Below are positions 1,096 to 13,151 of a stretch of 64,000 nucleotides of DNA, one piece after another. How positions within the stretch are numbered: position 1 is the stretch's first letter; every line of letters starts with the position of its first letter. The translations under genes were made by a program, and so were the position numbers. Source of the DNA: Moorella sp. E308F (GTDB lineage: Bacteria; Bacillota; DSM-521; Neomoorellales; Neomoorellaceae); assembly GCF_006538365.1 (NCBI RefSeq), contig NZ_BJKN01000002.1:269276-333275 (forward strand), given 5' to 3'. The notes beneath the pieces were generated by a model. That model was not told the origin of the DNA, did not search any database, and saw only the letters and a list, made by a program, of their open reading frames with translations.

Positions 1096-1692
1096 ATGCG
1101 GCTGTTTGTGGCCATAAATTTCTCTCCCGACCTGAAAGATGTCCTGGCAGGATTACTGGAAGAATTACGCCAGTTACCGGTAACGGTTAAATGGGTGCCC
1201 CCGGAGAATATCCATTTAACCCTCAAGTTTTTAGGTGAAGTGGCCCCGGCTAGAGTCGAGGAAATAGGAGCAGCCTTGCGGCGTGCCGCTGTGGGGGTTA
1301 ACCCCTGGCACCTGGAGGTAAAAGGCACCGGGGTTTTTCCTAATTGGCGCAACCCCCGGGTTGTCTGGGTGGGGGTGGACTCCGAAGAGCCATTGTATGC
1401 CCTGCAACAACAGGTAACCAGGGAATACCTGGCTCTTGGTTTCCCGGCCGCTTCCTTTACCCCCCATTTAACCCTGGGCCGTCTGCGGCCGGGGACGGCC
1501 TCCGGACCGCTGCAGGACAGGCTCAAGAGTCTGGCCGGTGTGTCCTGGGGGCGGGAAAGGGTGGCGGCGGTAAGCCTCATGGAGAGCAGTCTGACCCCCC
1601 GCGGGGCTGTTTATAGGCCGGTGCTAACAGTTCCTTTGCCGGCCCCTGACGGCGGCCCGCTGCCGGGTTCGGAGGGGCCCCTCGGGGACTGA
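1096..1692 (+). CDS. thpR: RNA 2',3'-cyclic phosphodiesterase (2H family)
   Basis: A 198-residue protein of the 2H phosphoesterase / LigT family, which opens 2',3'-cyclic phosphate ends of RNA and was historically called 2'-5' RNA ligase. Both signature tetrapeptides are visible: HLTL at residues 40-43 and HLTL at 124-127; the two His-x-Thr motifs form the active site. The ATG at 1096 follows an AGGTGA-type ribosome binding site; a GTG nine bases upstream is a poorer choice. It lies 70 bases after the FtsH-like gene and before recA. Together with rny and ymdB it makes this stretch rich in RNA end-processing and turnover enzymes. Confidence 0.9.
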   Translation: MRLFVAINFSPDLKDVLAGLLEELRQLPVTVKWVPPENIHLTLKFLGEVAPARVEEIGAALRRAAVGVNPWHLEVKGTGVFPNWRNPRVVWVGVDSEEPLYALQQQVTREYLALGFPAASFTPHLTLGRLRPGTASGPLQDRLKSLAGVSWGRERVAAVSLMESSLTPRGAVYRPVLTVPLPAPDGGPLPGSEGPLGD

Positions 1693-1733
1693 CGCCCCCT
1701 CCGACGAACAATGAAAATGCACTTTTGGCAAAG

Positions 1734-1974
1734 GGGGTGGAGGGTACAGGTGGAAGGCGACTTGGTTCGAGGCGTAAGCAAACTCAGCGAAGACGCAGCG
1801 AGGCGGCGGTTAACGGGATGGGGATCGTAACGCAGCTTTAGGAACGAGAAGTACCACGCCCCGTTATGATTGATCAAAGAGATAAAGCCACGCCACCCCC
1901 GCCGCCGAGCAAGGCTGAGCGCTAAGTTTGCTAGCCGAGAACCACCGGAGCCTGAAGCCTGTACCCTCCACCCC
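1734..1974 (+). ncRNA. Structured noncoding element A upstream of recA (same family as 12082-12336)
   Basis: The 359 bases between thpR and recA lack a credible gene but fold strongly. P1: 1734-1750 pairs perfectly with 1958-1974 (17 bp). P2: AGGC 1755-1758 with GCCT 1950-1953. P3: GGTTC-GA-GGC at 1764-1773 with GCC-GA-GAACC at 1934-1943, leaving tandem G-A pairs. A GTA bulge (1774-1776) follows. P4: 1777-1789 with 1920-1932 (12 of 13 pairs). P5: GGCGGCGG 1802-1809 with CCGCCGCC 1899-1906. Inner hairpin: TAACGGG 1811-1817 with CCCGTTA 1860-1866. The P1/P2 loop (TGGA opposite GAAG), the CCGGA before the P2 3' strand, and CGAGCAA at 1906-1912 recur in the second element. Transcribed strand and identity are inferred; HEARO-like RNA is one possibility. 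Confidence 0.72.
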
Positions 1975-2051
1975 AAAGAACATGAAGTACAGATCAACCA
2001 GCAAAAGCATTTGTGGTAGAACTTTACTTTCGTAGGAGGCGAACTTAAATA

Positions 2052-3089
2052 GTGGTTTTATCGGACAAACAGCGGGCCCTGGAAAATGCCCTGCTCCAGA
2101 TCGAGAGGCATTTTGGCAAAGGTTCCATAATGAAGCTGGGGGAATCCGGCGCCAGGCTCAACGTAGAAGCCATTTCCACCGGCGCCCTGCCCCTGGATCT
2201 GGCCCTGGGGGTAGGCGGGTTGCCCCGGGGCCGGGTGGTGGAGATTTTTGGCCCGGAATCCTCCGGTAAGACGACGGTGGCCCTGCACGTCATAGCCGAG
2301 GCCCAGCGGGGCGGCGGCACGGCAGCCTTTATCGACGCCGAGCACGCCCTCGACCCGGTGTATGCCAGGAACCTCGGCGTCGACATTGATAACCTTTTAG
2401 TATCCCAGCCCGACACCGGGGAGCAGGCCCTGGAAATCGCTGAGGCCCTGGTTCGCAGCGGCGCCATCGATGTTATTGTCATCGATTCCGTAGCTGCCCT
2501 GGTACCCAAAGCTGAACTGGACGGTGAAATGGGCGACGCCCATGTGGGCCTGCAGGCCAGGCTCATGTCCCAGGCTTTACGCAAGCTGGCCGGTGTTATT
2601 GCCAAATCGCGCACGGTTGCCATTTTTATTAACCAGCTGCGGGAAAAGGTAGGGGTCCTCTTTGGCAGTCCAGAGACGACACCCGGGGGACGGGCGCTAA
2701 AATTTTATGCTTCAGTGCGCCTGGATGTGCGCAAAGTAGAGCAGGTCAAGCAGGGAACCGAGATTATTGGCAGCCGTACCCGGGTAAAGGTTGTTAAAAA
2801 TAAAGTAGCGCCGCCTTTCCGCCAGGCCGAATTTGATATTATTTACGGCCGGGGTATTGACCGCGAGGGCTGCCTTCTTGACATGGGTACGGAATTAGAT
2901 ATAGTAAAGAAGAGTGGGGCCTGGTATTCCCTGGGGGAGGACCGCCTTGGCCAGGGCCGGGAAGCAGCCAAAGAGTTCCTGCGTGATCACCCCGAATTGG
3001 CGGCCAGCATTGAAAACCAGATTCGCGTTAAAGTCGGGTTAATCAAGACGGCCACGCCTTTAGAAGACGAAGGTGCGCAAAACGGATAA
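2052..3089 (+). CDS. recA: RecA recombinase
   Basis: RecA binds single-stranded DNA, drives strand exchange and, as a filament, promotes LexA self-cleavage. The 345-residue length is normal. Residues 67-75 (GPESSGKTT) are the Walker A loop; further family signatures include [10 protein letters not shown] and the DNA-binding loop region around INQLREKVG. The GTG start follows AGGAGG at 2034-2039 with good spacing. The recX start lies inside the recA end, so the two are translationally coupled. A structured RNA element sits just upstream. I found no clear LexA box (GAAC-N4-GTTC) in front of the gene, although one is visible before lexA. Confidence 0.98.
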
Positions 3090-8088: not shown

Positions 8089-8099
8089 ATAATTAACTT

Positions 8100-8265
8100 A
8101 ATAGGGAACAGGTGCCTGAAAGGTTAAAAGGGAATCAGGTGTAAATCCTGAGCGGTCGCGCCACTGTAACCGGGGAGCCTGCTTCAAGGCCACTGGTATT
8201 ATACCGGGAAGGCGAAGCCAGGCAAGGAGCCGGAGCCAGGAAACCTGCCTGTTCATTTCACCCTC
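8100..8265 (+). promoter_or_regulatory. Cobalamin riboswitch
   Basis: This adenosylcobalamin-binding leader shows the hallmark elements in order: the GGTGCCTG region near 8111, an AATCAGGTG / AATCCTGAG helix, the GCGCCACTGTAA core near 8158, a GAAGGCGAAGCCAGG arm, and the B12 box GAGCCAGGAAACCTGCC near 8234-8250. It precedes the whole cobalamin gene set, so it is expected to switch the operon off when B12 is plentiful. Confidence 0.95.
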
Positions 8266-8295
8266 GCGTTAAGGGGCCTAAAGTTAGGTGATGTG

Positions 8296-12081: not shown

Positions 12082-12336
12082 GGTGGGGATATGTCCCGGA
12101 GCCGCGAATAGTGGAGCGCCGGTAACAGGACAGGCGAGGTGAGGTAACCGTTGCCGCCGCCGAGGACGCCTGAGCGTGCCCTGGCGAGGAATACAGAGTG
12201 ACCTCATAGAAGGATTCAGGCCAGCGGAGCAGGAAGCCTTTTCATTGGCAATCCGCAGGCGGCGAGCAACGGTCCGAACCGAGCCGTAGTCCTGTCGGCG
12301 CGTAACTCCTGAGCGGCGAAGGGACATATCCCCACT
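12082..12336 (+). ncRNA. Structured noncoding element B between cbiL and cbiF (same family as 1734-1974)
   Basis: A 355-base break in an otherwise tightly packed operon holds a highly folded element. P1: GTGGGGATATGTCCC (12083-12097) pairs perfectly with 12321-12335. P2: GCCGC 12101-12105 with GCGGC 12313-12317, the P1/P2 loop being GGA opposite GAA. P3: GCGCCG 12116-12121 with CGGCGC 12296-12301. A GTA bulge (12122-12124) follows, then P4: ACAGGAC 12125-12131 with GTCCTGT 12289-12295. P5: 12147-12161 with 12258-12273, 15 bp with one bulged A, containing CGAGCAA. CCTGA precedes the P2 3' strand, as CCGGA does in element A. The shared architecture points to one RNA family. Function unknown. 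Confidence 0.75.
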
Positions 12337-12386
12337 AGAAGGCACCATTTTTAGCAGAACGTTATTTTTGGAGGAGCAGAGCAGGC

Positions 12387-13151
12387 ATGAAGGTTTATTT
12401 TGTCGGGGCCGGGCCGGGAGACCCGGAGCTGATTACCGTCAAGGGGCGCCGCCTTTTAGAGGAAGCCGGGGTCATTATCTATGCCGGCTCCCTGGTGAAC
12501 CCGGAAATTTTAAAGTATGCGCCGCCGGGAGCCAAGCTGTATAACAGCGCTTCCCTCACCCTGGAAGAAGTCCTGGCCATCATGCAGGAGGCGGTAGCCA
12601 GGGGCGAAAAGGTGGTCCGCCTGCATACGGGCGATCCTTCCCTGTACGGGGCCATCCAGGAGCAGATGGACGCCCTGGAGGGTCTGGGTATACCTTATGA
12701 GATCGTGCCCGGCGTCAGCTCCTTTGCAGCGGCGGCAGCAGCCGTCAGGAGGGAATTTACCCTGCCGGGAATAAGCCAGACGGTGATCCTCACCCGGCGG
12801 GCCGGCCGCACCCCGGTGCCCGCCGGGGAAAGTCTGCCCGATTTAAGCCGCCACCGCGCCAGCCTGTGCCTTTTCCTCAGCAGCCAGGACCTGGCGGCGG
12901 CAGCGGCCGAGCTGGCCCGTGGATATGGGGAAAATACCCCGGCGGCAGTAGTCTACAAGGCCTCCTGGCCGGAAGAAAAGATTATCCATGGTACGCTGGG
13001 GGATATTGCCGCTAGAAGCAGGGAGGCGGGCATTGACCGGACGGCCCTGCTCCTGGTCGGCGATTTCCTGGCCGGCAGCTACCAGCGCTCCTTACTGTAC
13101 AACCCGGCCTTCAGCCACGGCTACCGCGAGGCTAAGACACCCCATGACTGA
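12387..13151 (+). CDS. cbiF: Cobalt-precorrin-4 C11-methyltransferase CbiF
   Basis: A 254-residue tetrapyrrole methylase with GAGPGDPELITVKG at the N-terminus, YAGSLVNPE, the HTGDPSLYGA loop and the VPGVSSF motif, the signature set of C-11 methyltransferases (CbiF/CobM). ATG 12387 follows GGAGGAG. Its end overlaps cbiG by 8 bases. It is the first gene after the structured RNA element, so it may depend on read-through of, or a start point within, that element. Confidence 0.95.
   Translation: MKVYFVGAGPGDPELITVKGRRLLEEAGVIIYAGSLVNPEILKYAPPGAKLYNSASLTLEEVLAIMQEAVARGEKVVRLHTGDPSLYGAIQEQMDALEGLGIPYEIVPGVSSFAAAAAAVRREFTLPGISQTVILTRRAGRTPVPAGESLPDLSRHRASLCLFLSSQDLAAAAAELARGYGENTPAAVVYKASWPEEKIIHGTLGDIAARSREAGIDRTALLLVGDFLAGSYQRSLLYNPAFSHGYREAKTPHD

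Follow-up and report, generated by a model that had tools for sequence, protein, structure and literature searches.

Two structured, non-coding elements, one in the leader of recA (element A) and one within a cobalamin operon (element B), were analyzed in a 64,000-nucleotide stretch of the Moorella sp. E308F genome (assembly GCF_006538365.1, contig NZ_BJKN01000002.1, positions 269,276 to 333,275; here called the window). Element A is a dispersed, multi-copy, mobile repeat at unrelated loci, and its structured core is flanked, in most copies examined, by a shell that sits at Shine-Dalgarno (SD) sites and whose left part matches the end of an IS110-family element; this mobile context was absent from an earlier, sequence-only reading of the window. 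The units composed of shell and core are probably non-autonomous derivatives of a bridge-RNA-type IS110 element that inserts at, and re-creates, SD sites, with the cores as separate passengers. The direct observations from which we argue are the dispersal of the units, their shared left end, their SD position, the SD word at their right tip, the structure and covariation of the cores, and the 9-bp duplications around a related core type (type D).

Organization and dispersal of the unit in the recA leader

The unit ahead of recA lies on the forward strand. Its left edge is the SD-like word TTCGGAGGGG (1668-1677), at a position occupied by GGAGGAG in most other copies, which would be the target half of an IS110 insertion. 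The left shell follows (segment U, 1678-1733), an IS110-type left end with a hairpin and the motif GAACAATGAAAAT that matches the U consensus at 86% over 51 nucleotides (nt; E = 3.4e-10), then the type A core (1734-1974), a structured rod, and the right shell (segment D, 1975-2039), which ends in the recA SD CGTAGGAGG (2031-2039); the right shell was assigned from the conservation of the right flank in other copies and from a pattern match at 2018-2036. The recA coding sequence (2052-3089, forward strand, GTG start) was taken from the list of open reading frames (ORFs), and a DNA search with its 5' part recovered orthologs in 14 of 15 genomes. Upstream, a ThpR-like ORF (1087-1692) draws its last four codons and its stop codon (1690-1692) from the left shell (window 1678-1692).

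Positions 1734-1750 (GGGGTGGAGGGTACAGG) and 1958-1974 (CCTGTACCCTCCACCCC) are exact reverse complements and form a 17-bp closing helix, P1. The sequence-only reading had described a structured element with this helix around a nested series of others, and the description held: a 285-nt stretch folds at -131 kcal/mol (z = -8.74), with none of 200 shuffles as stable, and both the nested helix order and the tandem G-A helix (GGTTC-GA-GGC with GCC-GA-GAACC) are present and conserved across copies. The window copy scores 280.7 bits against the covariance model of A, of whose training set it is a member.

The suggestion of a dispersed, possibly mobile element is borne out by its distribution. Within the window's own genome, DNA searches returned five other near-complete copies of A (80-91% identity) and one fragment, as well as two further full copies of B together with end remnants. 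Element A was found in nine of ten congeners, in one genome of the same family (G012) and in one of another family of the phylum (G018), and the covariance-model search for further members yielded up to 93 matches per genome, the maximum being in G009. For element B, G008 has 27 matches, and G010 and G001 have 11-13. Among named records, a single exact word from the core occurs in four Moorella contigs (M. thermoacetica DSM 21394, M. sulfitireducens, M. stamsii), and as a single-word match in a Clostridia metagenome-assembled genome and in one Streptomyces contig; the plasmid and phage collections searched contained no match to A.

Comparison of recA loci among relatives, which the sequence-only reading had proposed, separated three states: shell and core together in the window's genome, shell remnants that lack a core (G002, G003), and absence of the shell, with the whole unit missing (G004, G006, G008, G009). 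A direct repeat noted earlier around element A (GAACAATGAA and GAACATGAA) is present but is not a target duplication: in the alignment of copies GAACAATGAA belongs to the left shell as a conserved motif, and the other copies lack the right-hand word.

The shell and an autonomous IS110-family element

In most A copies examined, the left flank reads GGAGGAG followed by CCCCTCATGGGGGCTGACGCCCCCGCCAGCGAACAATGAAAAT and the right flank closes with CCATTTTTGGCAGAAGTCTATTTTCGGAGGAG, after which comes a start codon; this left motif and this right tail also surround cores of types B and C. At 37 of 58 unit right ends, an ORF of 60 codons or more begins within 17 nt. At three loci the core lies in the opposite orientation to its shell, and at three orthologous loci B cores keep their place but differ in orientation between species (L010/L132 against L133, L157 against L163, and L138 against L123). 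Cores can thus be inverted, A, B and C share one shell, and type D copies occur alone, so that shell and core are separable.

The left-shell sequence also opens a 1707-bp element present as nine identical copies in the congener G008, the shell and the element's left end agreeing at 85% over 48 nt (E from 3.2e-8 to 2.5e-6 over the nine copies). The element encodes a 412-residue IS110-family recombinase (NF033542, 288.6 bits against an NCBIfam cut-off of 140; Pfam PF01548 and PF02371), for which PADLOC returned no match. Its right tip, GTGATTTCGGAGGAG, which carries TTTCGGAGGAG, is identical in all nine copies, the left flanks differ but each end in GAGGAG or CAGGAG, and in eight of nine copies an ORF start codon lies 3-12 nt past the right tip. 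Judged by these junctions, the nine copies have the target half on the left and the donor half on the right, which is the IS110 exchange pattern and not a duplication. One of the insertions sits in the SD that ends a B unit; the orthologous site of the window (12356-12376) carries no insertion. In the 290-nt leader between left end and gene, GGAGGAG occurs twice, together with CCATGGAGG; under the rules for IS621 (PMC11208160) these words could be placed as left target guide (LTG), left donor guide (LDG) and right donor guide (RDG).

A second IS110 element, in G003, has a recombinase 55% identical to that of G008, a similar-looking left end, and a right end running from TGTGGTAGAA to AAGGAGGAG, to which the right shell of the window is closer by eye than to the right end of the G008 element. 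A further IS110-type element, present in several copies in G008 (L317-L323), has a left end, ACAATCATGAAAATAG, that resembles the shell motif CGAACAATGAAAAT, and uses a different target. No shell ends lie near the other IS110 genes of the genus, one of which is in the window's genome. The window's units are 240-nt cores with flanks, in which the ORF list shows no DEDD recombinase, and G008 alone has the matching full element, so that the units are probably derivatives of IS110 ends and not IS110 members. Since the window's own genome yielded no matching autonomous element, the copies there are probably immobile at present.

The resulting mechanism can be set out in five steps. Insertion would occur directly 3' of GGAGGAG, ahead of genes, as seen for the autonomous element, and the GGAGGAG at the right tip, likewise seen, would leave the downstream gene with an SD. 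A bridge RNA with GGAGGAG in its guide words would confer specificity; the recombinase, and presumably the bridge RNA, would act in trans on units that retain only the ends; and the cores would be passengers that entered shells and were amplified along with them.

Core types and maintenance of the hairpin

Element B (12082-12336, forward strand) is a structured rod identified by its fold, covariation, copies in the genus and a covariance-model score of 304 bits, itself being in the training set; its folding z is -8.08, with 0 of 200 shuffles as stable. No clear left shell precedes the core in the window, and the left flank (GGCGGCGATTATA before 12082) may be a remnant of the 5' half of an A core. 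The right shell of the B unit (segment D, 12337-12376, forward strand) ends in GGAGGAG (12370-12376) and is defined by a pattern match at 12356-12374 and by junction comparison with G008. The ORF downstream (12387-13151, forward strand) encodes a methyltransferase-like protein of the cobalamin operon, an identity drawn from operon context. A cobalamin riboswitch (RF00174, 119 bits) lies at window 8093-8266, ahead of the operon that contains B.

A third core, type C, of about 182 nt with the closing helix GGGGTGAGGCAGGTTCCC, occupies the same shell in G006, G007 and G009; copies lie at L173 1565-1745, at L174 on the reverse strand and at L176 1682-1875. T-box leaders scoring 91.9 and 87.6 bits, just under the gathering level of 93 bits, were recorded at L273 1091-1414 and at L174 1578-1816, reverse strand. 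Chimeric units consist of the 5' half of an A core followed by a B core (L048, L122, L130) or a C core (L176) and then the right shell, and look as if one core had entered another and the rest of A had been lost.

The fourth core, type D, was found in other genera. In G025 (L279-L281, L286-L288) it is a 262-bp structured element with recent, near-identical copies, exact ends CTG...CAG and 9-bp target duplications (ATGAATAAT, GTGGCAGTA, GTCTAAGGA and GGTACTTAG). Judged by these ends and duplications, type D is a true transposition unit of the DDE-enzyme kind that moves alone; no transposase was noticed by eye in G025 among the ORFs beside further end matches.

The sequence-only reading had proposed one RNA family for A and B, and this stood in part. 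By inspection, a GGA/GRA loop between P1 and P2 and the tandem GA are shared by A, B and C, and A and B align locally above shuffles (z 5.2), but the global alignment is not distinguished (z 0.8) and the A covariance model has no match on B at E <= 10. The same model matches type C (E = 2.7e-10) and type D (E about 1e-14 in G025 and 2e-11 in G013), values to be read with caution because the antisense strand of A itself scores E = 4.6e-11. Alignment of A with C is supported only globally (z 3.6, G006 copy), and alignment of A with D is supported locally (z 6.9, 0 of 400 shuffles). A sequence-only profile of A gave nothing significant on B, C or D, and one shuffled control scored above them. Kinship of A with type D is supported by the covariance model and by an independent alignment against shuffles; the A-B link consists of motifs and a local match, and a single family for both is unproven. 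Searched against all Rfam families, A and B had no match at the gathering level or at E <= 10, group II introns included, which speaks against an intron fragment. Types A to D are without an Rfam entry and would offer a new family for structural work.

Covariation was measured in alignments of 25 A copies and 16 B copies, with consensus rods of 42 and 55 pairs. Both sides had changed in 17 of 42 pairs of A (shuffled mean 7.5, 0 of 500) and in 12 of 55 pairs of B (shuffled mean 4.8, 0 of 500), in agreement with the compensated helices claimed earlier; the signal exceeds both controls in A and in B, is lost once partners are slid, and involves internal helices as well as P1. At the L010/L132 locus the two arms change together between orthologs (GGTAGGG/CCCTACC against GGCAGGG/CCCTGCC). 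This covariation shows maintenance of the hairpin and does not establish that it functions as RNA; an RNA-level role for the core is inferred. Arm-to-arm correction of DNA palindromes is an established mechanism and could be an alternative source of the covariation.

Weighing the explanations

Several observations weigh against IS110-derived units with passenger cores. Beyond TTTCGGAGGAG, the right shell has little in common with the right end of the G008 element, and no autonomous element with both shell ends was found in G000 or in G009, the genome with the most copies. Three core types in one shell at similar positions are a coincidence if the cores are mere passengers. No 9-bp duplication of the type D kind was seen for A or B copies, for which reason their movement in Moorella is attributed to the shell. 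Finally, deviations from CGGAGGAG in the left SD octamer of a unit tend to recur in its right one (permutation p = 1e-4), a correlation not expected under simple IS110 exchange; gene conversion between the halves, or a different exchange point, could produce it. Units with a shared deviation are L062, L068, L084, L089, L190, L197 and L228, and the right word of the autonomous IS110 is constant. The SD position of the units may in part reflect survival bias.

In a bolder version, which is unlikely, an SD-programmed bridge-RNA system has spread through the genus and left dozens of non-autonomous copies in a genome, and the cores are a new family that works at the RNA level: they would be a cis-acting RNA partner of movement, located where the bridge RNA lies, or an expression buffer for the genes on which the units land. 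The core as the IS110 bridge RNA itself was rejected, as the A and B models have no match on three IS110 types, leaders included.

That the core is a functional RNA, a cis-regulatory leader or small RNA kept by selection before host genes with its spread incidental, is unlikely. The covariation of inner helices would fit such a role, as would the conservation of the inner strands (mean pairwise identity 0.85-0.88) around a variable apical part (0.71-0.73), the placement of the core nearly always in a 5' leader and mostly in one orientation, and an excess of G-U over A-C in A when cells are counted (159 against 36). That excess, however, is weak when distinct states are counted (31 against 19, p 0.12) and is not significant in B, palindrome correction is another possible source of the covariation, the downstream genes are unrelated, the recA shell has lost its core in G002 and G003, and cores at orthologous loci have been inverted in place.

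It is decidedly unlikely that the whole unit is a classical miniature inverted-repeat transposable element (MITE), with a DDE transposase that moves it and duplicates 8-9 bp at SD sites, and that the likeness of segment U to the IS110 left end reflects an IS110 that captured U or inserted beside it. The octamer correlation and the type D relative, with its clear 9-bp duplications and CTG...CAG ends, speak for a MITE, but the shell ends lack terminal inverted repeats and nine autonomous copies combine exactly this left end with a recombinase and the SD position. An 8-bp target duplication as the origin of the SD repeats was accordingly replaced, the autonomous right tip being constant, though the octamer correlation stays unexplained.

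Very improbable is the HEARO/omega RNA (RF02033) of an IscB-like system raised by the sequence-only reading: size, stand-alone copies and mobile distribution are similar, but it is disfavored because neither A nor B has a HEARO match at E <= 10, nor ten related loci at E <= 1, and because no nuclease ORF was noticed, by inspection and with no profile search, beside copies with listed ORFs. A retron non-coding RNA was considered for the closing helix, and the single nested rod of A is unlike msr-msd.

Two further known systems come close to IS110-derived units. With IS110 elements that carry a bridge RNA (IS621 type; PMC11208160) they share a left end and, as seen in the autonomous element, a target half on the left and a donor half on the right, a long left non-coding leader with candidate guide words and a defined target; unlike these elements, the window units have no recombinase or leader, target SD sites, and combine structured cores with many non-autonomous copies. 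MITEs and repeats of the BOX, ERIC and REP types are short, non-coding, palindromic and dispersed between genes. The units have all these properties, and the type D core adds inverted ends and 9-bp duplications; they differ from such repeats in shell ends that are not inverted repeats, in a fixed SD target, and in a rod-like core with conserved internal loops and covariation. No earlier description linking IS110, SD sites, MITEs or Moorella repeats was found in an open-access full-text library, a prior report being possible in subscription journals or preprints.

If IS110-derived units of this kind are confirmed, IS110-type elements would gain non-autonomous satellites, and a natural guide would be available for a target found before many genes. 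An RNA-guided recombinase aimed at ribosome-binding sites, and rebuilding them, would have a route of entry into essential operons, such as recA and the cobalamin genes, that does little harm.
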